Of a stretch of 8,934 nucleotides of DNA, positions 126-8,934 are shown piece after piece. Position numbers and translations under genes: made by a program. Source of the stretch: Candidatus Atribacteria bacterium (GTDB lineage Bacteria > Atribacterota > Atribacteria > Atribacterales > Caldatribacteriaceae); contig JARRCQ010000055.1 in NCBI GenBank assembly GCA_029982105.1, positions 1-8,934 of the forward strand, written 5' to 3'. Position 1 is the first letter of the stretch; each line of letters starts with the position of its first letter. The notes beneath the pieces were generated by a model. It had not been told where the DNA came from and did no database searches. It worked only from the letters and a program-made list of their open reading frames with translations.

Positions 126-322
126 GAAAAAGGAGTTGTCATTTTGGGGCGAGGATTAGAGCGATTTTTCTAATTGATAGAAGGGGAATAAAAGGAGAGG
201 GGTTTCGTTTATAGTTATGGTGTTAGATATTTGAATTTGCTTTTTGGTCTGCAGTTTTCTTCGTTTACTTCCTATTGCCTGGAGAGCCAAAACCACTGGA
301 AAAGAAGGGGGGTGTTTAAAAA
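126..322. other. Intergenic leader region of the 323 gene
   Basis: No credible coding frame is seen. A TATAGT hexamer at 210-215 could be a -10 box, but no convincing -35 lies at the right distance. The purine-rich run at about 304-312 is the ribosome binding site of the gene starting at 323. Confidence 0.4.
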
Positions 323-1132
323 GTGCGATTCCTTAGGCGATATATAGGTATGGGTTTAGTTATTTTGATTACTTTCTTTCTGGGAATTTTAGCTGGAGAT
401 ATTCCTCTTTCTTATTCTAAGGAAGATATGAAATCGATGGCTGAAAAAGTAGGCGTGACCGCTCAGGCTTTTTATACGACAGGAAGCGACCAGGTTTATT
501 ATCAAATTGGTCGAAACTTAAAAGCTCTGGATGAAATCATAAATATGGTAGAAAAAGCAAAGAGTCTTGATGAGGTTATAAACCCTGTGGTAGACAAATT
601 AGAAGAAATTACCATTTCTTATGAGCACATCTCCAATCTTAGGCCTCAGATAGAAGAAGAGTTAAGGGGAAAGGTAGAGGAATTCCAGAATTTACTTAAA
701 AAATCTAAGGACCAGATTAAAATTCTGGAAGATGAAAAATCAGGACTGGAAGAAGAGCTAAAAGAACTGTCTTTAGAACAGGATGAGGAAGTGAAAAAGG
801 TAAAGAGAAGGAGTTTGAGTATGCAAGTAGAGTTTAAGACCAAAGAAATTCAGATTTGGCGAGAATTTGTTTCTTTGGAAGATAAAATTTATGAGACTAT
901 CAAAGATGCTGACCAAACTATTAAGAAATTTCTTTTAGTTCTATCTGAAAATGCTAAAGTTTATCGTGGTGCTTTAGAAGTGGTTAAGCTCCAGCGAGAC
1001 ATTAAAAGTTTAGCTAATTTTATGAGTTTGCAACAGCTCTCTGATGAGCTAATCTCTACCTGGCAAGACCTTCATTGCCTTATTGAGCTTCTAACCCAGG
1101 AAGTTAATAGACTTCCTGCTTTCCAGGAATAA
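323..1132 (+). CDS. Membrane-anchored coiled-coil protein of unknown function
   Basis: I do not recognise this 269-residue protein. The start is a GTG behind a GAAGGGGGG ribosome binding site; an internal ATG at codon 10 has no such site and would cut into the hydrophobic segment. Residues 8-25 form one hydrophobic span after Arg-rich MRFLRR, so it is a signal anchor or an uncleaved signal peptide with the rest probably outside the membrane. Residues 65-100 and especially 108-165 are rich in Glu, Lys and Leu with heptad-like spacing, suggesting long coiled coils. The last 80 residues are also helical in character. It contains one cysteine (C252) and no enzyme motif. It is followed after 14 bases by a small membrane protein gene, so the two are probably one operon. 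A role as an envelope scaffold or partner protein is only a guess. Confidence 0.8.
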   Translation: MRFLRRYIGMGLVILITFFLGILAGDIPLSYSKEDMKSMAEKVGVTAQAFYTTGSDQVYYQIGRNLKALDEIINMVEKAKSLDEVINPVVDKLEEITISYEHISNLRPQIEEELRGKVEEFQNLLKKSKDQIKILEDEKSGLEEELKELSLEQDEEVKKVKRRSLSMQVEFKTKEIQIWREFVSLEDKIYETIKDADQTIKKFLLVLSENAKVYRGALEVVKLQRDIKSLANFMSLQQLSDELISTWQDLHCLIELLTQEVNRLPAFQE

Positions 1133-1146
1133 AATGGGTTGGAGCG

Positions 1147-1389
1147 ATGAAAAAAGGAGAAGACAGAAAAACATTCAGGAAAATAGGATGGTGGATAATT
1201 ATCCTGGTGATGGTTATTCTTCTGCTATGGGGAGTAAGCAGCAAGTGGAAATGGTTTTCCCCTCCTCATACTTGGTCTGACATAGCTATGCTTATTCAGG
1301 AAGTAGAAGAAAAAACTCAAAAACTAAACCAAATTTTACAAGAAGCTCTTCAATCCGGAGAAGAAAAAGAAACTTCTTTAGGACCCTAA
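1147..1389 (+). CDS. Small single-span membrane protein, unknown function
   Basis: This 80-residue protein has a basic N-terminus (MKKGEDRKTFRK), one Ile/Leu/Val/Trp-rich transmembrane segment at about residues 14-31, a WKWF stretch just behind it, and a helical, Glu/Gln-rich tail from residue 45. TGGAG stands just ahead of the ATG, with tight spacing. The gene follows the coiled-coil gene by 14 bases, and both products pair a single N-terminal membrane span with a helical tail, so they may act together. Its stop codon ends at 1389 and the stop of the convergent activase gene begins at 1390, with no room for a terminator between them. No family is recognised. Confidence 0.65.
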   Translation: MKKGEDRKTFRKIGWWIIILVMVILLLWGVSSKWKWFSPPHTWSDIAMLIQEVEEKTQKLNQILQEALQSGEEKETSLGP

Positions 1390-2421
1390 TTATCCCTCCA
1401 CCAAAGACTCTTCTTCCCTCTGGAGTGGTTCCTCGGAGCTTTCCTTTTCTTCCCATCTCTTTCTTACCGTAGCAGGAGTCCATTTGCCACAACGGCTACC
1501 CCACAAAGCTTTAATATCTTCTTCTTCTTTCAAGATTACTATCTCACAAGCATTGGGACAGTCTTCGCAATTAAAACTCCGACTTTCAAATTGGCGGCTT
1601 ATTACTTCAAATCCAGAGAAAGATGTTTTTTCTGGAGCATATTCTAAAGCTAAGATGGCCGCTCCCCAGGCTCCCATTACTCCATGTTCAGGAGGAACGA
1701 TAATTTTCTTTTTGCCCTGGAAAAAGTCTCGAAAAGCTTGGACAATTCCCTCATTGGCAGCTACTCCTCCCTGAAAAACAATGGGGTCTTCTATGGTTTT
1801 CCCGGTGGCTAAGTTGTTGATAAAATTTCGCACCAGAGCTTCACAAAGTCCCTTAACAATTTCTGGTTTACCAAAACCCAGTTGTTGTTTGTGAATCATA
1901 TCTGATTCAGCAAAAACCGTGCATCTTCCGGCGATACGCACTGCTTGTTCTGCTCGGAGGGCTAATTTTCCAAATTCTTCGATAGGAACGTTGAGGCGTA
2001 CTGCTTGATGCTCTAAAAAAGAGCCTGTTCCGGCTGCACAGACGGTATTCATAGCAAAATCTTCTACCACTCCATCTCGAATGATAATTAATTTACTGTC
2101 TTGCCCTCCAATTTCGAAGACGGTTCGTACCTCAGGTACTCGAGTAATAGCTGCTATGGCATGAGCAGTAATTTCGTTTTTTACTATGTCTGCCCCTACT
2201 ACTATTCCCGCTAGATGTCGAGCACTACCGGTACTACCCACTCCTTTTATTTCTCCATCGTGGGGAAAGTGTTTTTCTATGTAACGCAAACCTTCTTTCA
2301 GTGCTTCAATAGGGTCACCACTCGTGCGTAGGTAACAACTGGCTAAAATATTTTTCCCTTCATCCATAAGCACAAACTTAGTGGTTACTGAACCCACGTC
2401 CACTCCTAAATAAAGGTCCAT
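1390..2421 (-). CDS. BadF/BadG/BcrA/BcrD-type ATPase, 2-hydroxyacyl-CoA dehydratase activase (HgdC-like)
   Basis: The family uses ATP hydrolysis to drive one electron from a [4Fe-4S] cluster, shared by a homodimer, onto a dehydratase or reductase. Visible ASKHA ATPase motifs are DVGSVTTK (residues 8-15), IGGQDSK (104-110) and the GGVAAN loop (218-223). Cluster ligands match the HgdC pattern: C128 in NTVCAAGTG and C167 in AGRCTVFAESDM. At 343 residues it is longer than the usual 260 or so. The extension carries CX2CX3C (C285, C288, C292) and C311 in RCGKW, as in the activase part of very large fused activase/DUF2229 proteins, and may hold a second cluster (inference). The ATG directly follows the TAG of the upstream gene, and a GGAGG site at 2430-2434 lies inside that gene, so translation is coupled. 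No dehydratase subunit gene is present, so the electron acceptor is unknown. Confidence 0.9.
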   Translation of the reverse strand: MDLYLGVDVGSVTTKFVLMDEGKNILASCYLRTSGDPIEALKEGLRYIEKHFPHDGEIKGVGSTGSARHLAGIVVGADIVKNEITAHAIAAITRVPEVRTVFEIGGQDSKLIIIRDGVVEDFAMNTVCAAGTGSFLEHQAVRLNVPIEEFGKLALRAEQAVRIAGRCTVFAESDMIHKQQLGFGKPEIVKGLCEALVRNFINNLATGKTIEDPIVFQGGVAANEGIVQAFRDFFQGKKKIIVPPEHGVMGAWGAAILALEYAPEKTSFSGFEVISRQFESRSFNCEDCPNACEIVILKEEEDIKALWGSRCGKWTPATVRKRWEEKESSEEPLQREEESLVEG

Positions 2422-3522
2422 CTAACTAACCTCCAGCTTTCTTTTGTTCAATTTTTTCCTTCTTTCTAAAACGTCTACAAATGCTTCCACTCTGGTAACT
2501 AATCCTGCCTCTCCAGAGTGTTCGTCTATGGCTAAATGAAGGATAGGTAAATCATAATCTTTACTCACTGTAGTGAGTATACTTTTGGCTACTACTTCAG
2601 GCATGCAGGTAAAAGGATAAAGATGAATAACCCCATCAAAACCTTGCTGAGCATAGCGAATAGTGCTTCCCACAGTATCAATCCCTTCTCCTCCTACAAA
2701 TCTCTTTAGGTAAGGTTTAGCTAACTTCCAGGCTTCTAATTTTTCCTGAGAGTGAGTAAAGGGTAAGGTGTGCAAAACATACTCTACTGTGGAAACAGAG
2801 TTGTGCACGTATGCACCTAAATCACCTAATATTTTTTCTACATTGAAATTTATTTTTGTTTCTTGAGCTATATAAATTTCTCCCACGATTCCCACTTTTA
2901 TGAGGTCCTCTATTTCTTTCCGTTCTAAGCTGTTTAACTTCTTCCTAGTTGCTTCTTGGATAGCTTGCAAACTTTCTCCATTGTTTACCTGACGCAGCTG
3001 CTCCAGTGCTCCTTCTACTATTTCGTCCAATTGTTGTCGGTTTTTTACCTGAGCCCGCAAAGCTCTTCTTTCTGTTTCTAATTCTTCACTAAAGCGCAAA
3101 ATTTTCCAGGCTAAGCTGGCTACCTTAATAACTCGGGAAGAAAGAACTCGTCCTCCGGCCATAGCTTGCAGGGCTCTTATAAAAGGGCGAATACCATAAC
3201 GAGGATGGTCTAATAAAACAAAATTAACGTTATAACCCAGGTCTTCTAAAATTATACGCTGGATTTGCCCGTAATAACCGAAACGACAAGGTCCTACTCC
3301 TCCAGCCATAAAAATGGTATCAGCTCCTAACTCGATCCCTTCTATAAAGTTAGCTAAAGTAACTTTAAGGGGAAAACAAGCGTTTTGAGGAGCTAATTTT
3401 ACCCCAATTTCAATAGTTTTTTGAGTAATAGGGGGAGGAGTGATAATTTCTACCCCCAAAGCAGGGTAGAGAACTCCTAAGGCTATATCAAGATGAAGCA
3501 AATGAGGAAACGTGGCTTTCAA
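2422..3522 (-). CDS. Acyl-CoA dehydratase activase-related protein (COG3581-like, HgdB-related)
   Basis: This 366-residue protein resembles the family whose members begin MKxTFPH and carry a conserved GGVGPCRFGYYG (residues 74-85). Cysteines that could bind a cluster are C49 (NACFPLK), C79 (GPCRFG) and C306 (PFTCMPE). The C-terminus has IDEHSGEAGLVTRVEAF (332-348), nearly identical to a segment of the neighbouring upstream protein, so the two share a domain. The start is TTG, supported by GGAGG at 3533-3537 with 10-base spacing and by the family-like N-terminus. The start lies 35 bases inside the preceding gene. In many anaerobes these domains and the activase are fused into one protein of about 1,400 residues; here they are separate genes in one operon. 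The substrate is unknown for most of the family. Confidence 0.87.
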   Translation of the reverse strand: MKATFPHLLHLDIALGVLYPALGVEIITPPPITQKTIEIGVKLAPQNACFPLKVTLANFIEGIELGADTIFMAGGVGPCRFGYYGQIQRIILEDLGYNVNFVLLDHPRYGIRPFIRALQAMAGGRVLSSRVIKVASLAWKILRFSEELETERRALRAQVKNRQQLDEIVEGALEQLRQVNNGESLQAIQEATRKKLNSLERKEIEDLIKVGIVGEIYIAQETKINFNVEKILGDLGAYVHNSVSTVEYVLHTLPFTHSQEKLEAWKLAKPYLKRFVGGEGIDTVGSTIRYAQQGFDGVIHLYPFTCMPEVVAKSILTTVSKDYDLPILHLAIDEHSGEAGLVTRVEAFVDVLERRKKLNKRKLEVS

Positions 3523-4486
3523 TGTTCTTATACCTCCACTCCATCATATCTACAAAAGCTTCTAAACGAGTAACTAAACCTGCTTCTCCGGTATGCTCGT
3601 CAATTTCTAAACGCAAATAAGGGAGAGACTCCTTTTCCCTTTTAAGAAGACGCTCAATTAATTCTCCTACTAAAGAATCTGGCCCGCATTCAAAAGAAAC
3701 CAGGTGGATAAATCCTCTAACTTCTGCTTTTCTCTCTTTTAGATGGTATAAAGCACTACCGATGATTTCGTTAGAAATAGTCCAAAAACTGGGTTTGGGT
3801 ATAGTAGAGAGATAATATCTTTTCTTTTCTTCTTCTACCATATCGGGAGTGATGACCGAATAATTGAGGTCGTTGACTTTTTTGGCAATATTCATATTTA
3901 TATAGCTATCGCTTAAAAGATAAGTATGACCCAGAAGCACAATTTTCCTCTCTCGAAGAGGAAGGGGGTTTTTATGGTCAATCAAATCCTCTGGAAGTAT
4001 GCCTTGTTTAAGATTAGTTTGATACTCTTTATAAGCTTTTTCTGCTAATTGCAGAGCTTTCATAATTTTGCTTTCTTTAGTGGTAAAATGTTTACCAATG
4101 TTCAAGAAACCTTTTTGCCAACCTCGCATACCTTCTTCCCGCATATTAATTTCGTCATCGATTATTCTTTCTCCTGGAATACTGAAAAGGTTACGAGCTA
4201 AGTCGGGAAGAGCCAATATTTTTGGACAGTTATATTCTTTTCTGTGGAAACTAACTACTCGAGGGATAAACAATAAGTCTACCCGGTCCTTAAGATAAAG
4301 AGCGTGTCCCAAAAACACTTTGGCCGGAAAACAAATTTCCTCTACCGCGTAAGTTAAGCCTTGCTGGATTATGTTTTTATTGGTGGGAGGAGAAGTTACT
4401 ACCTCTGCTCCTAATTCTTCTAAAAAAGTTTTCCAGAGAGCATAAAAACGATAAAATAAAAGACCTCGCGGAATACCTACCTTCAT
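3488..4486 (-). CDS. DUF2229 / COG3580-like activase-associated protein
   Basis: This 332-residue protein starts MKVGIPRGLLFYR, the typical opening of the DUF2229 family. It keeps cysteines C52 (EEICFPAK), C87 (EYNCPK) and C267 (SFECGPDS) at positions matching the HgdB-like fold, and ends with IDEHTGEAGLVTRLEAF (295-311), shared with the next gene. ATG start, AGGTG ribosome site at 4492-4496 with 5-base spacing. It is first in a three-gene operon, with a good -10 box 33 bases upstream. Its position beside an iron-sulphur activase suggests these proteins form or receive electrons in a redox complex, but whether they act as enzyme, scaffold or electron acceptor is not known. The last residues (KNIESHVSSFASS) overlap the start region of the next gene. 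Confidence 0.87.
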   Translation of the reverse strand: MKVGIPRGLLFYRFYALWKTFLEELGAEVVTSPPTNKNIIQQGLTYAVEEICFPAKVFLGHALYLKDRVDLLFIPRVVSFHRKEYNCPKILALPDLARNLFSIPGERIIDDEINMREEGMRGWQKGFLNIGKHFTTKESKIMKALQLAEKAYKEYQTNLKQGILPEDLIDHKNPLPLRERKIVLLGHTYLLSDSYINMNIAKKVNDLNYSVITPDMVEEEKKRYYLSTIPKPSFWTISNEIIGSALYHLKERKAEVRGFIHLVSFECGPDSLVGELIERLLKREKESLPYLRLEIDEHTGEAGLVTRLEAFVDMMEWRYKNIESHVSSFASS

Positions 4487-4518
4487 TTTTTCACCTACTT
4501 TGAAAACATTCGGATTTT

Positions 4519-4546
4519 ATTATACAACTTAAACCCAGAAAAACAA
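4519..4546 (-). promoter_or_regulatory. Promoter of the activase operon
   Basis: On the minus strand a perfect TATAAT (4519-4524) stands 33 bases before the ATG at 4486. A weak -35 candidate, TTGTTT, lies 16 bases further upstream (4541-4546). The short leader holds only the ribosome binding site. Confidence 0.55.
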
Positions 4547-4585
4547 AAAAATTCCCTTTAAATCCCCCGGAAAAAATACTTTATC

Positions 4586-5065
4586 TTAACTTATATATTT
4601 CACCATTCTAATCCATATCCCCTTTTGCTCTTTTTTCTGAAATCCGTTGTGTAGATAGAACTCCTGGGCTTTATAGTTTTTTTCTCCTACCCATAGTTCT
4701 ATCTTCTTCCTTCCTCGAAAAAGAGCAATTTGAGTTGCTTCTTCTATCAATTTTTTTCCTATTCCTTTTCCTTGAAATTGAGGGTCTACCACAATCTCAT
4801 GAATTTCCGCCACTCGCTCTTTTCCTGACATCCAATTGGTATGTATTCCTAAAAATCCTATTGGCTTATCTCCTTCCAAAACCACTAAAAAATTATCCGG
4901 GTCTCCATTCCGTAACCAATGAAGATAAGCTGCTATTTTCCAGCGATTATTGTCTCCATACTCAGGGAGATCTTCATAGGCCCGTTGGTAAACAGAAACA
5001 AGTTCAGGGATTAATTCTTTAAATCGATGATAACTTAGATTTTTCTCAATCTTCACTTTTATCAA
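4586..5065 (-). CDS. GNAT family N-acetyltransferase
   Basis: This 159-residue single-domain protein has the GNAT acetyl-CoA pyrophosphate-binding motif QGKGIG (residues 98-103) after the strand IHEIVVDPQF. It also has the later motif B strand and helix, IELWVGEKNYKAQEFYLHNGF (N130 and Y137 in the usual places). It would transfer an acetyl group from acetyl-CoA to an amine; the substrate (small molecule, peptide or protein N-terminus) cannot be read from sequence. The start is TTG at 5065 with an AAAGGTAG ribosome site (5070-5077); no in-frame ATG lies near. It is monocistronic in appearance, about 100 bases ahead of the activase operon and on the same strand, with a TATAAT at 5115-5120 as possible -10. 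Confidence 0.85.
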   Translation of the reverse strand: MIKVKIEKNLSYHRFKELIPELVSVYQRAYEDLPEYGDNNRWKIAAYLHWLRNGDPDNFLVVLEGDKPIGFLGIHTNWMSGKERVAEIHEIVVDPQFQGKGIGKKLIEEATQIALFRGRKKIELWVGEKNYKAQEFYLHNGFQKKEQKGIWIRMVKYIS

Positions 5066-5114
5066 TTGACTACCTTTCTTCCTGGAATTAAGAATAAATT
5101 TTCTTTGTCTGGTA

Positions 5115-5135: not shown

Positions 5136-5200
5136 CAAGATACAACCTACGGTGCCCTCTCTCCCGCCATCGCGAGGGTCGTATAAACAGCCTACGGCGT
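5136..5200. repeat. Two imperfect copies of an ACAxCCTACGGxG unit
   Basis: ATACAACCTACGGTG (5140-5154) and ATAAACAGCCTACGGCG (5183-5199) are similar units flanking a GC-rich segment that contains TCGCGA. This composition differs from the AT-rich surroundings and looks like a dispersed intergenic repeat or the edge of an old mobile element. No gene is seen here; the open frame at 5116-5301 on the minus strand is low-complexity and Arg-rich. Confidence 0.35.
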
Positions 5201-5204
5201 AAGA

Positions 5205-5238
5205 AAAAAGAACAATAAGGGGGTTTACCCCCCCTTAT
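5205..5238 (-). terminator. G/C-run hairpin, second possible minus-strand terminator
   Basis: ATAAGGGGG (5215-5223) pairs with CCCCCTTAT (5230-5238), a perfect 9-bp stem with a 6-base loop. On the minus strand it is followed within a few bases by a T-rich stretch (about 5203-5213). It is the backup partner of the hairpin at 5277-5302, or part of a repeat family, because the same ATAAGGGG/CCCCTTAT theme returns at 5302-5327. Confidence 0.4.
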
Positions 5239-5264
5239 CAACCCCCAAAGAAAAAAACGTAAAA

Positions 5265-5302
5265 ACAACAAAAAACAGTGAGGCAGGAAAACCTTCCTCA
5301 CT
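5265..5302 (-). terminator. Terminator behind trmO on the minus strand
   Basis: AGTGAGG-x-AGG (5277-5287) pairs with CCT-x-CCTCACT (5292-5302) around an AAAA loop on the plus strand. Read on the minus strand, the hairpin is followed by GTTTTTTGTTGTTTTT. This is a good intrinsic terminator for transcription coming from trmO. Confidence 0.6.
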
Positions 5303-5327
5303 ATAAGGGGAAAAATACCCCCTTATA
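5302..5327. repeat. Hairpin TATAAGGGG/CCCCTTATA
   Basis: A perfect 9-bp inverted repeat (5302-5310 with 5319-5327) with an 8-base A-rich loop directly abuts the terminator hairpin. It repeats the theme of the 5215-5238 hairpin, and both are trailed by an AACCCCCAAA run (from 5240 and from 5327). The pair therefore looks like two copies of one short palindromic element. Confidence 0.45.
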
Positions 5328-5420
5328 ACCCCCAAAAAGCAAAGAAACAAGAGCAAAAGACCGTTGGAGAGGATAAACCGGACAAAATCTCTTATAATTC
5401 TTGAAGTAGAAGACTTTTCA

Positions 5421-6102: not shown

Positions 6103-6179
6103 GACTCTACTGGACTTTTTACCACCACACTTCTTTTTAGATATTTTTCCACACACTTTATTATAGAGCCTCGGACATC

Positions 6180-6208
6180 TTGACAGACTTGGTAGCTTGT
6201 GATACTCT
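6180..6208 (+). promoter_or_regulatory. Promoter of the amt-glnK transcript
   Basis: A perfect -35 TTGACA (6180-6185) is followed by an extended -10, TGTGATACT (6198-6206; 15-base spacer), or a poorer TACTCT at 17 bases. The 30-base stretch shares 19 identical positions with the glnA promoter at 8550, including TTGACAG, TTGT and ATA. Transcription would start near 6213, giving a leader of almost 490 bases before amt. Confidence 0.6.
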
Positions 6209-6229
6209 GCAGCTAGTTTTGTGGAAGTA

Positions 6230-6248
6230 AAGCACAAGGTTAGTGCTT
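6230..6248 (+). promoter_or_regulatory. amt leader unit 1: antiterminator-type hairpin
   Basis: AAGCAC (6230-6235) pairs with GTGCTT (6243-6248) around a 7-base loop AAGGTTA. Position 1 is A and position 4 is G, but the loop is one base longer than the usual ANTAR hexaloop. Its 3' arm is also the 5' arm of the terminator at 6242-6285, so the two structures exclude each other. No first hairpin (P1) is seen between the predicted transcript start and this hairpin, so the unit is atypical. Confidence 0.5.
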
Positions 6249-6285
6249 AATGAAAAGGAAAGATATTGTTTTAAGTGCTTTTTTT
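6242..6285 (+). terminator. amt leader terminator 1
   Basis: AGTGCTTAA (6242-6250) pairs with TTAAGTGCT (6271-6279), a 9-bp stem with two G-U pairs and a 20-base loop, ending in seven T (6279-6285). It lies inside the leader, over 400 bases before amt, and overlaps the hairpin at 6230-6248. An alternative pairing uses AAAGCAC at 6229-6235 with GTGCTTT. Confidence 0.6.
6254..6266 (+). repeat. 13-bp direct repeat shared by amt leader units 1 and 3
   Basis: AAAGGAAAGATAT at 6254-6266 recurs exactly at 6387-6399, just after the first hexaloop hairpin of unit 3. In unit 1 it sits in the terminator loop. This supports origin of the stacked units by duplication, or a shared binding sequence. Confidence 0.55.
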
Positions 6286-6298
6286 CTGTTAGATTTCC

Positions 6299-6332
6299 CT
6301 TCTATGATTGGAAGAGCTGGATAAAGGCGTCC
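6299..6332 (+). promoter_or_regulatory. amt leader unit 2: paired hexaloop hairpins (ANTAR-type antiterminator)
   Basis: First hairpin: CTTCT (6299-6303), loop ATGATT, GGAAG (6310-6314). Its loop has A at position 1 but not G at position 4. Second hairpin: GGAT (6319-6322), hexaloop AAAGGC (6323-6328, A1 and G4 present), GTCC (6329-6332). The GGC of the loop and the GTC of the 3' arm form the 5' arm of the terminator that follows, so the second hairpin and terminator cannot coexist. The spacer between hairpins is 4 bases. Confidence 0.6.
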
Positions 6333-6370
6333 TTTTGGTAGCATAGCTGCTAAAGAGACGCCTTTTTTTT
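6323..6370 (+). terminator. amt leader terminator 2
   Basis: AAAGGCGTC (6323-6331) pairs with GACGCCTTT (6357-6365), and eight T follow the GC-rich stem (6363-6370). The apex contains a small hairpin, TAGC (6339-6342), loop ATAGCT, GCTA (6349-6352), which by itself also has a hexaloop with A1 and G4. Confidence 0.8.
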
Positions 6371-6463
6371 GGAACACAGGTGTTCTAAAGGAAAGATATA
6401 AGGGACATTCTGTCCTTGCAGAGTTAATTAAAAAGTAGATATTTATCTGAGTAAAGGCGCTCA
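6371..6463 (+). promoter_or_regulatory. amt leader unit 3: two hexaloop hairpins (ANTAR-type antiterminator)
   Basis: First hairpin: GGAAC (6371-6375), hexaloop ACAGGT (A1, G4), GTTCT (6382-6386). Second hairpin: TGAGT (6448-6452), hexaloop AAAGGC (A1, G4), GCTCA (6459-6463). The second overlaps the 5' arm of terminator 3, GGCGCTCA. The two are 61 bases apart, more than in the other units. Another stem, AGGGACA/TGTCCTT (6401-6417), lies between and could bring them together. Pairing of these two hairpins as one unit is inference. Confidence 0.6.
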
Positions 6464-6507
6464 ATTTGATGCCATGATGGCAGGCAAACAAAATTGAGCG
6501 CCTTTTT
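6453..6507 (+). terminator. amt leader terminator 3
   Basis: A perfect 12-bp stem, GGCGCTCAATTT (6456-6467) with AAATTGAGCGCC (6491-6502), extended by AAA/TTT, is followed by TTTTTATTTT. The loop carries its own small hairpin, TGCC/GGCA (6470-6482). This is the strongest terminator of the amt leader and stands about 190 bases before amt. Confidence 0.85.
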
Positions 6508-6526
6508 ATTTTCTACTCGATAAGAG

Positions 6527-6564
6527 AGGAGGTGAAACTCAAGATGAAAAATACTAGAACATAA
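6527..6564 (+). CDS. Possible leader peptide of six residues (MKNTRT)
   Basis: A near-perfect ribosome binding site AGGAGGTG (6527-6534) is followed after 9 bases by ATG (6544), five sense codons and TAA (6562-6564). Such a strong site ahead of so short a frame, just past the last leader terminator and ahead of three hairpins, could mark a translated leader peptide or a site where ribosomes affect the RNA fold. It could also be chance or a gene relic. The coordinates include the ribosome binding site. Confidence 0.25.
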
Positions 6565-6575
6565 TCTGTCAGCGG

Positions 6576-6648
6576 CCAAGAAAGATGAGACTCTTTCTTT
6601 TGGAAATCTGTAAGTGTCAGATGATGATAATCAAGATGATAAATCTTG
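6576..6648 (+). other. Three tandem stem-loops in the distal amt leader
   Basis: CCAAGAAAGA pairs with TCTTTCTT..GG (6576-6603, loop TGAGAC). ATCTG (6606-6610) pairs with CAGAT (6618-6622). CAAGAT (6632-6637) pairs with ATCTTG (6643-6648). None is followed by a T-run. They sit between the last leader terminator and the amt ribosome binding site and fit no RNA class I recognise. They may stabilise the mRNA or control translation. Confidence 0.35.
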
Positions 6649-6700
6649 CAGAGTATTTGTATTGGTATTCAGCTTTTAGCCTTGGGAAAGGAGAAAGAAA

Positions 6701-8071
6701 ATGCTCGTGAGAATGTTAAATTTAGTACCCAAGATTTTAATTTTAGCCACCTTAATGGTTATGTTCTCACCTTTTTTTGCCTTTGCTGATGAGTCAACAG
6801 CAGCAACTAATGCGGTAGCAATTGACACAATCTGGACGCTTATATCAGCCTTTTTAGTTTTCTTTATGCAAGCAGGGTTTGCCATGTTAGAAACGGGATT
6901 TACCAGAGCAAAAAATGCCGTTAATGTTTTGATGAAAAATCTTATGGACTTTAGTGTTGGCTCAATTGCTTTCTGGATGGTTGGTTTTGGAATAATGTTT
7001 GGCACAGATAAATTAGGACTTTTTGGCACAAGTGGATTTTTCTTAAGTAGCGCGAATCCTTCAACTAGTGAGGGATTATGGCAATTTGCCTACTGGATGT
7101 TTCAGGTAGTGTTTGCTGCTACTTCAGTAACTATCGTTTCAGGAGCACTGGCTGAAAGAGTAAAGTTCCATGCCTATTTGGTTTACTCGTTTGTTATATG
7201 CGCTTTAATCTATCCTGTAGTGGGCCACTGGATTTGGGGAGGCGGCTGGCTGGGGAATAGGGGTATTATAGATTTTGCCGGTTCAACCATTGTTCATTCA
7301 GTTGGTGGCTGGGCAGCCTTGGCTGGTGCAATTCTTATCGGACCAAGATTGGGTAAATATAATAATGATGGAACTTCCAATGCTATTCCCGGTCACAATA
7401 TTCCATTAGCTACCCTGGGAACATTCATTCTTTGGTTTGGCTGGTTTGGCTTTAATCCCGGAAGTACTCTGGCCGGCACAAATTTGAGTATCGCTACCAT
7501 TGCAGTAACTACTAATTTGGCTGCTGCTGCAGGATTTATCACTGCTATGTTTACCGCCTGGGTAAGATTCGGAAAACCCGATACCAGCATGGCTCTAAAC
7601 GGCGTGCTAGCAGGATTAGTAAGCATTACTGCTCCTTGCGCCTCTGTTTCACCATTTTCTGCTATCATTATTGGTGCGGTTGCTGGGATTTTAGTTGTCT
7701 TGAGCATTGAATTTATTGACAAGGTGCTCCACATAGATGATCCCGTAGGCGCAATATCGGTTCATGGAGTTTGTGGAACTTGGGGAACACTTTCAGTAGG
7801 TCTTTTTGCCCAAGCTGTTTATGGTGAAGCAAGTGGTATAGGTGCAATAAATGGACTTTTTTTCGGAGGAGGATTATCACAGCTACTTACCCAATTAATA
7901 GGTGTATTTTCCGTATTTGCTTGGGTGTTTGGTTCGGCACTCGTTCTTTTCTACATTGTTAAAAAGACTATAGGCTTAAGAGCTTCCGATGAAGAACAGT
8001 TAAAAGGGTTAGATATCAGCGAGCATGGCATGGAGTCTTATGCTGGTTTTCAGATATTTACTACTGAGTAG
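6701..8071 (+). CDS. amt: Ammonium transporter (Amt/AmtB family)
   Basis: This 456-residue protein is a full-length Amt channel conducting ammonium across the inner membrane, normally as a trimer. The N-terminus carries a signal peptide with a likely cleavage after AFA (residue 29), as in other bacterial Amts. Eleven hydrophobic spans follow, from about residue 40 to 420. Conserved elements are [16 protein letters not shown] (138-153, first pore Phe region), D191-x-x-G-S-T, the twin pore histidines H199 (IVHSVGG) and H355 ([10 protein letters not shown]), and [11 protein letters not shown] (245-255). The ATG has an AAAGGAG site at about 6685-6691. The cytoplasmic tail ends in a short acidic stretch. 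glnK follows after 21 bases, the usual partner that blocks the channel when nitrogen is plentiful. The long leader with three terminators implies strong transcriptional control. Confidence 0.96.
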
Positions 8072-8092
8072 AATGAACAGGGGGTAACCAGG

Positions 8093-8434
8093 GTGAAATT
8101 AATTATTGCTATGATACAGCCATACAAGCTCCCAGATGTTAAGAAGGCACTTTATGACGCCAATATCTTTAAGATGACTGTTACCAACGCTTTGGGTTGT
8201 GGCCAACAAAAAGGTTACACTGAAACTTATAGAGGAATTATCCATGAAGTAAACCTTCTTAAGAAGGTAAGAGTAGAAATTGCGGTTAATGATGACTTTG
8301 TAGATCCTACGGTGGAAGCTATCATTAAGGGAGCTAGAACGGGACGAATTGGCGATGGCAAAATATTTGTATTGGATTTGCCAGAATGTATAAGAATCAG
8401 AACGGGTGAGCGAGGCGAAAAAGCAATTGGTTAA
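8093..8434 (+). CDS. glnK: PII nitrogen regulatory protein (GlnK/GlnB family)
   Basis: This 113-residue protein has the size and pattern of PII signalling proteins, which bind ATP/ADP and 2-oxoglutarate as trimers and control Amt and other nitrogen proteins. Ligand-site residues are in place: T29, G37, Q39, K58, the R82-T-G-R-I-G-D-G-K90 segment, R101 and R103. The T-loop reads [16 protein letters not shown]: the tyrosine at 46 is present, but position 51, the uridylylated Tyr of enteric GlnB/GlnK, is His. Control by uridylylation at that site is therefore excluded, while metabolite sensing should remain. The start is GTG, supported by AGGGGG at 8079-8084 with 8-base spacing. It is the second gene of the amt operon. 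Linkage to amt suggests GlnK rather than GlnB. Confidence 0.94.
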
Positions 8435-8461
8435 GATAAACCTTAAGAAGTATGTTTTTTT
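8429..8461 (+). terminator. Weak terminator candidate behind glnK
   Basis: TTAAG (8431-8435) and CTTAA (8442-8446) can pair around ATAAAC, or GGTT (8429-8432) with AACC (8439-8442). Seven T follow at 8455-8461, eight bases after the stem. The stem is short and overlaps the stop codon, so termination may be leaky and allow readthrough into glnA. Confidence 0.3.
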
Positions 8462-8487
8462 ACCTTTATCGGGAACACCACTAATAC

Positions 8488-8523
8488 TCTGTGAAAGACC
8501 TCTACAGGAGAGTTGATCACAGA
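8488..8523. repeat. Two-tier palindrome between glnK and the glnA promoter
   Basis: TCTGTGA (8488-8494) pairs with TCACAGA (8517-8523), and inside CTCT (8500-8503) pairs with AGAG (8509-8512) around ACAGG. No T-run follows, so it is not a simple terminator. It lies 27 bases upstream of the glnA -35 box and could be an operator, an mRNA end-stabilising hairpin or part of another RNA switch. Confidence 0.45.
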
Positions 8524-8549
8524 ATAACTACGCGAGAGCCAAATTTCTA

Positions 8550-8578
8550 TTGACAGGTTACATGGTTTGTAATAAAAT
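8550..8578 (+). promoter_or_regulatory. glnA promoter
   Basis: TTGACA (8550-8555) and TAAAAT (8573-8578) are separated by 17 bases, an excellent vegetative promoter. Transcription should begin near 8585, at the very foot of the first leader hairpin. This places both leader terminators inside the glnA transcript. The stretch resembles the amt promoter at 6180. Confidence 0.75.
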
Positions 8579-8585
8579 GAGCGCA

Positions 8586-8618
8586 CACCAATGAGGGTGC
8601 AATAGAACGAAGGCGTTC
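8586..8618 (+). promoter_or_regulatory. glnA leader unit 1: paired hexaloop hairpins (ANTAR-type antiterminator)
   Basis: First hairpin: CACC (8586-8589), hexaloop AATGAG (A1, G4), GGTG (8596-8599). A variant starting at GCAC (8583) with a bulged A also forms. Second hairpin: GAAC (8605-8608), hexaloop GAAGGC (G at position 1, G at position 4), GTTC (8615-8618). The second overlaps the 5' arm GGCGTTCC of the following terminator. The linker is 5 bases. Confidence 0.6.
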
Positions 8619-8641
8619 CTTTACCGGGAACGCCTTTTTTT
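8610..8641 (+). terminator. glnA leader terminator 1
   Basis: GGCGTTCC (8612-8619) pairs perfectly with GGAACGCC (8627-8634) around a 7-base loop, flanked by AA on the left and followed by seven T (8635-8641). It lies downstream of the glnA promoter and more than 110 bases ahead of the start codon, so it acts as an attenuator. Confidence 0.88.
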
Positions 8642-8658
8642 ATCGAGTTTAAATTTTA

Positions 8659-8694
8659 ACCTAAAGAAGGGTAAATATAGAACAGAGGCGTTCT
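8659..8694 (+). promoter_or_regulatory. glnA leader unit 2: paired hexaloop hairpins (ANTAR-type antiterminator)
   Basis: First hairpin: ACCT (8659-8662), hexaloop AAAGAA (A1, G4), GGGT (8669-8672). Second hairpin: AGAAC (8679-8683), hexaloop AGAGGC (A1, G4), GTTCT (8690-8694), extendable by two more pairs at the base. The linker is 6 bases. The second hairpin shares GGCGTTCT with the 5' arm of terminator 2. This is the clearest of the five units, because both loops fit the published ANTAR target rule. Confidence 0.68.
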
Positions 8695-8725
8695 GTCCCG
8701 ATGTCGGGGTAGAGCGCCTTTTTTT
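8687..8725 (+). terminator. glnA leader terminator 2
   Basis: A long hairpin with GGCG at the base (8687-8690 with CGCC 8715-8718), then U-G, TCT/AGA, two wobble pairs and CCCG/CGGG (8697-8708) with a tetraloop ATGT. Seven T follow (8719-8725). It ends 15 bases before the glnA ribosome binding site. Confidence 0.88.
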
Positions 8726-8755
8726 ATTACTTTAAATCAGGGAGGTTTTCTTAAG

Positions 8756-8934
8756 ATGGCTTGCCAATTAAAAAGTAAAGAAGAAGTAATTAATTTCTGT
8801 CAGGAAAATCGGGTGAAGTTTATTCGGTTATGGTTTACTGATGTTTTAGGAAGTTTAAAAAGTTTTGCCATTCCTATTGAAGAGTTAGAAAATGCTCTTC
8901 AGGAAGGAATGGGCTTTGATGGTTCTTCTATCAA
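8756..8934 (+). CDS. glnA: Glutamine synthetase, type I (GlnA), N-terminal part, cut by window edge
   Basis: The 59 visible residues form the start of the beta-grasp domain of GSI, the dodecameric enzyme that makes glutamine from glutamate, ammonia and ATP. Diagnostic stretches are VKFIRLWFTDVLGSLKSF (about 20-37) and GMGFDGSSI (51-59), where the conserved DGSSI loop contributes to the neighbouring subunit's active site. The ATG has a GGGAGG ribosome site (8740-8745) with 10-base spacing. The N-terminus looks like that of the shorter GSI-alpha forms, which are usually feedback-regulated and not adenylylated, but the deciding regions are outside the window. It has its own promoter and a two-terminator leader, and follows amt-glnK on the same strand. 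Confidence 0.93.
   Translation, partial: MACQLKSKEEVINFCQENRVKFIRLWFTDVLGSLKSFAIPIEELENALQEGMGFDGSSI

Follow-up and report, generated by a model that had tools for sequence, protein, structure and literature searches.

The closest described systems are the ANTAR dual-hexaloop attenuators EutV/eutP, NasR/nasF and AmiR/amiE (Ramesh 2012; Walshe 2022). According to the sections of Ramesh 2012 (PMC3369931) available to us, the ANTAR motif consists of two hexaloop hairpins, the second of which (P2) lies over a terminator; an A at position 1 and a G at position 4 (A1/G4) of both loops are required by EutV and, by citation, matter for NasR; the AmiR target also has A1 and G4. The same sections place predicted ANTAR sites ahead of nitrogen genes, among them those for ammonium transporters, P-II and glutamine synthetase, and count at least 13 ANTAR attenuators, spread over six nitrogen transcription units, in Desulfotomaculum acetoxidans. 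In the available sections of Walshe 2022 (PMC8934654), the EutV dimer binds only a single hexaloop at any moment, P1 is proposed to be a recruitment hairpin and P2 the antitermination hairpin, lengthening of the linker by 20 nt abolished EutV action in vitro, and the question is raised of how far single-hexaloop sites occur and matter. For NasR, the accessible part of a third report (PMC7496416) describes selection by SELEX of a C:G pair that closes the loop, as well as weak binding to a single hairpin (about 12 µM). The definition of ANTAR antitermination comes from these few laboratory systems, which have a single P1 and a single P2.

The window, by which we mean the whole stretch of 8,934 nt that was analysed, is contig C48 of genome G000, an assembly of 1.25 Mb that is 60% complete and belongs to the same family as genome G009. 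The ammonium transporter gene amt comes after a group of genes of opposite orientation (a BadF/BcrAD ATPase, two DUF2229/HGD-D proteins, a GNAT and TrmO). Features of the amt leader and of the nitrogen genes were as follows, with loops in brackets.

6180–6208, + strand: likely promoter of the amt leader, TTGACA-17-TACTCT (by eye and alignment with genome G012; absent from the consensus scan)
6230–6248, + strand: hairpin AAGCAC[AAGGTTA]GTGCTT, unit 1 of the earlier note, with no credible terminator after it (folding)
6319–6332, + strand: unit 2 P2-like antiterminator hairpin GGAT[AAAGGC]GTCC, closing pair U-G (hairpin search, folding)
6323–6370, + strand: unit 2 predicted intrinsic terminator, stem 6323–6365 plus U tract (folding)
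6339–6352, + strand: possible tip hexaloop of the unit 2 terminator, TAGC[ATAGCT]GCTA (hairpin search, tip scan, folding)
6448–6463, + strand: unit 3 P2-like antiterminator hairpin TGAGT[AAAGGC]GCTCA, closing pair U-G (hairpin search, folding)
6453–6507, + strand: unit 3 predicted intrinsic terminator, stem 6453–6505 plus U tract (folding)
6701–8071, + strand: amt, ammonium transporter (PF00909)
8093–8434, + strand: P-II nitrogen regulatory protein (PF00543)
8756–8934, + strand: glnA, glutamine synthetase, 5' end, cut by the window (PF03951)

The −10 element of the likely amt leader promoter is TATTCT in G012; the consensus scan lists TTTAGA-17-TATTAT at 6136–6164 (+). Downstream of this region, the region 6290–6371 folded at −32 kcal/mol (z −4.83) and 6371–6512 at −41.8 kcal/mol (z −3.90), with 0 of 200 shuffles as good in either case. 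The terminator hairpins proper (6323–6365, −25.0 kcal/mol; 6453–6505, −27.6 kcal/mol) are each followed by a U tract; both terminators were found by folding and are omitted by the consensus terminator scan, which covers loops of 3–8. The AAAGGC hairpins overlap the 5' base of these terminators and are mutually exclusive with them. Given that AAAGGC satisfies the A1/G4 rule for ANTAR hexaloops, units 2 and 3 each present an A1/G4 P2 hexaloop over the 5' arm of a terminator, as in an ANTAR target. Two such hexaloop-terminator units were observed in none of 500 dinucleotide shuffles of 6213–6700, and one unit in 3 of 500. The small hairpins are weak (−2.0 kcal/mol for 6319–6332 and −3.5 kcal/mol for 6448–6463); the isolated segment 6309–6334 preferred another fold over the unit 2 hairpin (−4.3, z −0.20), and 6440–6466 in isolation folded as the unit 3 hairpin (−4.5, z −1.48; 15 of 200 shuffles as good). 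The best folds of the two units were the terminators, at −31.8 and −29.7 kcal/mol versus −18.4 and −14.2 kcal/mol with the P2 hairpin enforced. The units would therefore be off without help and on with a bound protein.

The earlier note had described three attenuators in series ahead of amt, with terminators at 6242–6285, 6323–6370 and 6453–6507 and a small-loop hairpin overlapping each. The arrangement in series held with two members rather than three: the second and third terminators, together with their overlapping hairpins, stood out on folding against shuffles, and the identity of the hexaloop AAAGGC in these two units was confirmed. The hairpin of unit 1 is real (−5.7 kcal/mol, seven loop bases), whereas its terminator was rejected. 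GTGCTT at 6243–6248 and at 6275–6280 forms a direct repeat, not an inverted one, and the region 6213–6292 folded at −12.8 kcal/mol (z −0.09), with 95 of 200 shuffles as good; a terminator at this position would have to reuse the hairpin's 5' arm and span about 40 bases in its loop. The note had also regarded a strong promoter in 6510–6701 that bypasses the leader as an argument against its reading, and the consensus scan lists no promoter-like site there on either strand.

A comparison with the described systems showed both similarities and differences. The units resemble them in their A1/G4 hexaloops, in a P2 that incorporates the 5' base of an intrinsic terminator and in their position ahead of nitrogen genes, but differ in that the canonical upstream P1 (A1/G4, 5–12 nt before P2) is absent from amt units 2 and 3. 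The nearest candidate before unit 2, CTTCT[ATGATT]GGAAG, has no G4, and a search for a P1 of unit 3 yielded none. The C:G loop-closing pair selected with NasR was also not found in these units, in both of which the closing pair is U-G, and this counts against the ANTAR reading. A hairpin with A1/G4, GAAC[ACAGGT]GTTC, was observed at 6372–6385, immediately downstream of the terminator 2 U tract and 62 nt before unit 3 (52 nt in G012); its CAGG tetraloop register is more stable. This hairpin could serve unit 3 for recruitment, though it is distant. G012 is too nearly identical to the window for a covariation test of the amt stems. A search with Rfam covariance models returned five matches up to an E value of 5, all under the gathering score, with 0.65 as the lowest E value.

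The second nitrogen leader in the window, that of glnA, contained the following features.

8550–8578, + strand: promoter-like site TTGACA-17-TAAAAT before the glnA leader (scan, 11 of 12 matches)
8586–8599, + strand: unit 1 P1 hairpin CACC[AATGAG]GGTG (hairpin search)
8605–8618, + strand: unit 1 P2 hairpin GAAC[GAAGGC]GTTC, with G at loop position 1 (hairpin search, folding)
8609–8637, + strand: unit 1 predicted terminator (terminator scan, folding)
8659–8672, + strand: unit 2 P1 hairpin ACCT[AAAGAA]GGGT (hairpin search)
8680–8693, + strand: unit 2 P2 hairpin GAAC[AGAGGC]GTTC (hairpin search, folding)
8684–8721, + strand: unit 2 predicted terminator, tip CCC[GATGTC]GGG (terminator scan, tip scan)

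Both glnA units thus have P1 and P2 hexaloops, a short linker and a P2 over the terminator, as do the described dual-hexaloop systems, and unit 2 has A1/G4 in both loops. Under the strict unit count applied to the amt leader, the glnA leader scores 0, because the first base of the unit 1 P2 loop is G and terminator 2, as delimited by the scan, also takes in its P2. A further unit of this form, AGCT[AATGAT]GGCT followed by GGGAC[AAAGGC]GTTCC and a terminator, precedes a glutamate-dehydrogenase family gene in G012 (PF00208, E value of 1e-78).

We found 14 glnA loci of the window's type in relatives and examined 12 of them, leaving aside that of G012, which is the window's, and that of G014, which is split by a stop. 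An R1/G4 hexaloop precedes the terminator in all 12 leaders, and in 7 of these an R1/G4 P2 also lies over the terminator base; the other five (L170–L174) have an R1/G4 P1 and tip, with no R1/G4 P2 by scan. Ten glnA loci of a second type showed no clear unit. The P1 stems covary, with 59 of 65 possible pairs formed in 13 leaders (the window, 11 further glnA leaders and the G012 dehydrogenase leader); when the 3' arms were redealt among genomes, with kinship ignored, the mean was 51.9 (sd 1.6) and none of 1000 trials reached 59. Position 1 of the P1 loops is A in 9 and G in 4, which is no test given that the hairpins were chosen as R1/G4. Unlike the described systems, the loops of the window's order accept G at position 1.

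The loop AAAGGC was also detected in the amt leaders of L083 (two units) and L113 and in the glnA leaders of G090 and G118. We searched five genomes with the pattern AGGCG..CGCCTTTTT and obtained 17 matches, compared with 3 for a reversed-pattern control. Four of the six matches in G000 are the units of the window, the others being on C69 and C103; in G012, three of five correspond to the window locus, one to the glutamate-dehydrogenase leader and one to C15. The single match in G003 is its glnA leader. Among the five in G002, the match on C9 was inspected and showed no clear hexaloop unit, and the pattern had no match in G001.

To place the leader in a wider context, we surveyed the best 80 of at least 592 amt loci in other bacteria, scanning up to 600 nt upstream of each gene (six loci had less, with only 2 nt for L054). 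We counted as a unit any A1/G4 hexaloop hairpin with 4 or more pairs that overlapped a terminator. Left out before counting were L022, L048 and L168 (the window's own locus), L034, L035, L041 and L045 (partial matches), L036, L037, L039, L040 and L042–L044 (genomes outside the phylum), and L181 (glnA split by a stop). At least one unit was present in 25 of the 80 leaders, a few of which look accidental (parts of L090, L108, L111 and L128), two units in series in 10 and three in none. Comparison of the number of modules, which the earlier note had suggested, therefore yielded pairs and no triplets, and its impression that such a stack is not a standard arrangement was not supported, stacking being found also in D. 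acetoxidans. At 67 leader terminators, the A1/G4 class accounted for 24 of 38 overlapping hexaloop hairpins of all classes, versus 34 of 302 at 1136 control terminators (p 6.5e-12). This enrichment, with stems that vary, favors the earlier proposal that the loop rather than the stem is selected. In the two amt units of the window, however, AAAGGC also serves as the base of the terminator stem, where it pairs with GCCUUU, and its recurrence there therefore has two causes.

Genomes with a unit also tended to encode an ANTAR protein: an ANTAR gene was found in 23 of 25 unit-bearing genomes (the exceptions being L108 and L120) versus 24 of 55 others (p 2.5e-5, kinship uncorrected). We searched 34 of the 47 ANTAR-positive genomes for glnA and obtained a locus in 30; in 24 of these 30, glnA is followed within 1 kb by an ANTAR gene of the same orientation. 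Hexaloop attenuators are therefore tied to ANTAR proteins and nitrogen assimilation independently of the window. For a count of additional hexaloops we took 19 of the 25 positive loci as input and kept 20 units, mainly clostridial, under a stricter rule, and an R1/G4 hairpin was present 2–22 nt upstream in 3 of the 20. In L116, L119 and L133, the start of the P2 hairpin approximately coincides with the expected transcript start, as judged from a −10 box placed by eye. In the amt leader of G004 (L031), a third A1/G4 hexaloop, AGGC[AAAGGA]GCCT, was observed at 1351–1364, shortly before the start of amt, with no convincing terminator.

As for the protein, an ANTAR match exceeded the cut-off in 29 of 61 genomes, and the 14 named control genomes were below it. 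Seven of the eight genomes of the window's family outside its genus exceeded the cut-off. The one protein of this family that we examined with Pfam is a GAF-ANTAR protein, the ANTAR part of which weakly resembles response regulators as well as PDB entry 4akk, a nitrate regulatory protein; the presumed regulator thus differs from the receiver-ANTAR proteins of the described systems. No ANTAR domain was detected at an E value of ≤0.001 in the window genome, at 60% completeness, or in its congeners G001–G003, although G003 (75% complete) has the glnA leader. In G012, the contig ends within the GAF-ANTAR gene, which covers the ANTAR profile only up to position 18 of 54, and the remaining ANTAR part scores 14.8 bits versus the cut-off of 27.3. 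G000:C72, a GAF match in the window genome, was considered as the regulator and rejected, given that it has a GAF domain and a weak HisKA_3 match with no ANTAR domain. We infer that the window's organism has a cognate ANTAR protein.

We consider it about 70% probable that the amt leader contains two predicted ANTAR-type attenuators in series, at 6319–6370 and 6448–6507, and the hexaloop hairpins are likely bound by a GAF-ANTAR protein. The hairpin- and terminator-forming sequences, their overlap, the A1/G4 enrichment, the co-occurrence with ANTAR genes and the adjacency of glnA and ANTAR elsewhere were computed, and from these we infer folding in the cell, protein binding, the signal and the direction of control, as follows. 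In the default state, transcription would end at each terminator. Once the regulator has been activated, presumably on nitrogen limitation sensed via its GAF domain, a GAF-ANTAR dimer would hold GGAT[AAAGGC]GTCC and then TGAGT[AAAGGC]GCTCA as each emerges. A held hairpin would take the 5' base of the terminator, leaving a stem that is shorter and away from the U tract; with termination blocked twice, amt and the P-II gene would be transcribed. The read-through probabilities of the two units would multiply to give the leak, and binding would have to succeed at both for full expression. With read-through required twice, two units would leak less than one and respond more steeply to active regulator. 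The same regulator would also read the two P1–P2 units ahead of glnA.

Several other explanations were weighed against these ANTAR-type attenuators. Another trans-acting factor or ligand, such as a protein linked to P-II or a riboswitch of an undescribed kind, might read similar hexaloops, with ANTAR as a mere correlate. The failure to find an ANTAR gene in the window genome or G003 speaks for such a factor, as do the single hexaloops of the amt units, without P1 and closed by U-G; however, the loop rule is that of NasR and EutV, ANTAR genes accompany the units and follow glnA at the frequencies given above, and Rfam gave no match at the gathering score, so we consider this explanation unlikely. 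Tandem and triple-tandem riboswitches (one of the latter, PMC4759541, is reportedly in print) are similar in having repeated units in one leader, but these units are ligand-binding aptamers rather than protein-bound hexaloops.

Three functional attenuators with graded control, unit 1 included, are improbable. The heptaloop AAGGTTA does have A1 and G4, a U run (6279–6285) accompanies the local hairpin 6230–6248, and the unit 1 region is identical in G012, a genome too close for this to weigh much; against this stand the z value of −0.09 for the fold, a repeat that is direct rather than inverted and a loop of seven bases. It is very improbable that amt is merely insulated from upstream read-through by plain tandem terminators with hexaloops arising by chance. 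AAAGGC does follow in part from a terminator base ending in GCCUUU, and the small hairpins are weak. Plain terminators in this position would, however, silence amt, because they lie between its likely promoter and the gene, and neither the absence of paired units from 500 shuffles nor the enrichment of A1/G4 in amt leaders over controls is in keeping with chance.

The switch that we favor, the ANTAR-type attenuator, is of a known type, and we found no description of this leader in the window's lineage. Stacking likens it to the multi-site ANTAR regulon of D. acetoxidans, a Firmicute, which we compared by its published description only, in the part available to us.

The terminators themselves provided a further difference from the described systems. 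In the window's order, the terminator tip is an R1/G4 hexaloop in 26 of 43 terminators from 29 amt, glnA and dehydrogenase leaders, all at or below −13 kcal/mol and with kin counted apart, compared with 19 of 533 distinct control terminators from the same loci (p 7e-22), two of the 19 being amt leaders themselves. Of the remaining leader tips, 5 are hexaloops of other classes and 12 have none; when only hexaloop-capable tips were considered, R1/G4 accounted for 26 of 31 in leaders versus 19 of 151 in controls (p 1e-14). Positives occurred in 8 of 10 genera, and CC[AAAGAA]GG in the glnA leader of G004 is one example of such a tip. Tip loops varied within one genus (AATGTT, GATGTT, GATGTC and GGTGTC), although these are hand-picked positives and constitute no test. 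The comparison sets contained no R1/G4 tip, with 0 of 20 amt units, mainly clostridial, and 0 of 19 glnA-leader terminators. In the window, the possible tip hexaloop of amt unit 2 lies 6 nt past the P2-like hairpin and has −2.4 kcal/mol versus −9.4 kcal/mol for a triloop register, and the unit 3 terminator has no tip hexaloop of the R1/G4 kind.

The literature, in the parts available to us, contains no recognised description of tip hexaloops or P1-less attenuators, and the recurring tip hexaloop appears to us to be a new feature with a candidate role only. In Caldatribacterium and its kin, the terminator might be part of the regulator's site, with its tip acting as an ANTAR hexaloop P3. Each attenuator would then be a hexaloop relay (P2–P3 for amt; P1–P2–P3 or P1–P3 for glnA) in which a GAF-ANTAR dimer passes from loop to loop while RNA polymerase advances, with Clostridia as the opposite extreme, having a single hexaloop without P1 or P3. 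We propose this relay tentatively, at slightly less than even odds. If both the relay and the single-hexaloop reading of the clostridial leaders are true, both break the rule of one P1 and one P2 in ANTAR antitermination. The amt leaders provide a candidate set, with no P1 in view (mostly clostridial) or with a second hexaloop on the terminator (atribacterial) and with units single or two in series, that makes the question of why there are two hexaloops directly testable. The ANTAR nitrogen regulon (amt, P-II, glnA and glutamate dehydrogenase) would also then reach into a group represented chiefly by assembled genomes.

Some minor observations concern the surroundings of the leader. Contig C17 of G012 (L048), a genome of another family, is 99.0% identical to window positions 6139–8934 across amt, P-II and glnA (13 mismatches and 5 gap openings over 2.8 kb). 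Parts of the window within 176–5102 are 79–90% identical to congeners and about 71% identical to G012, and the break in identity lies just upstream of the amt leader promoter. As judged from these alignments, the nitrogen block 6139–8934 may reflect a recent horizontal transfer or else an assembly artefact. A dispersed intergenic repeat at about 5155–5360 is matched dozens of times across G000, its congeners and G012. In the stretch from terminator 3 to amt, a strong Shine-Dalgarno sequence, AGGAGGTG (6527–6534), is followed by a 6-codon open reading frame, ATGAAAAATACTAGAACATAA (6544–6564, MKNTRT), which is identical in G012 and possibly encodes a leader peptide.
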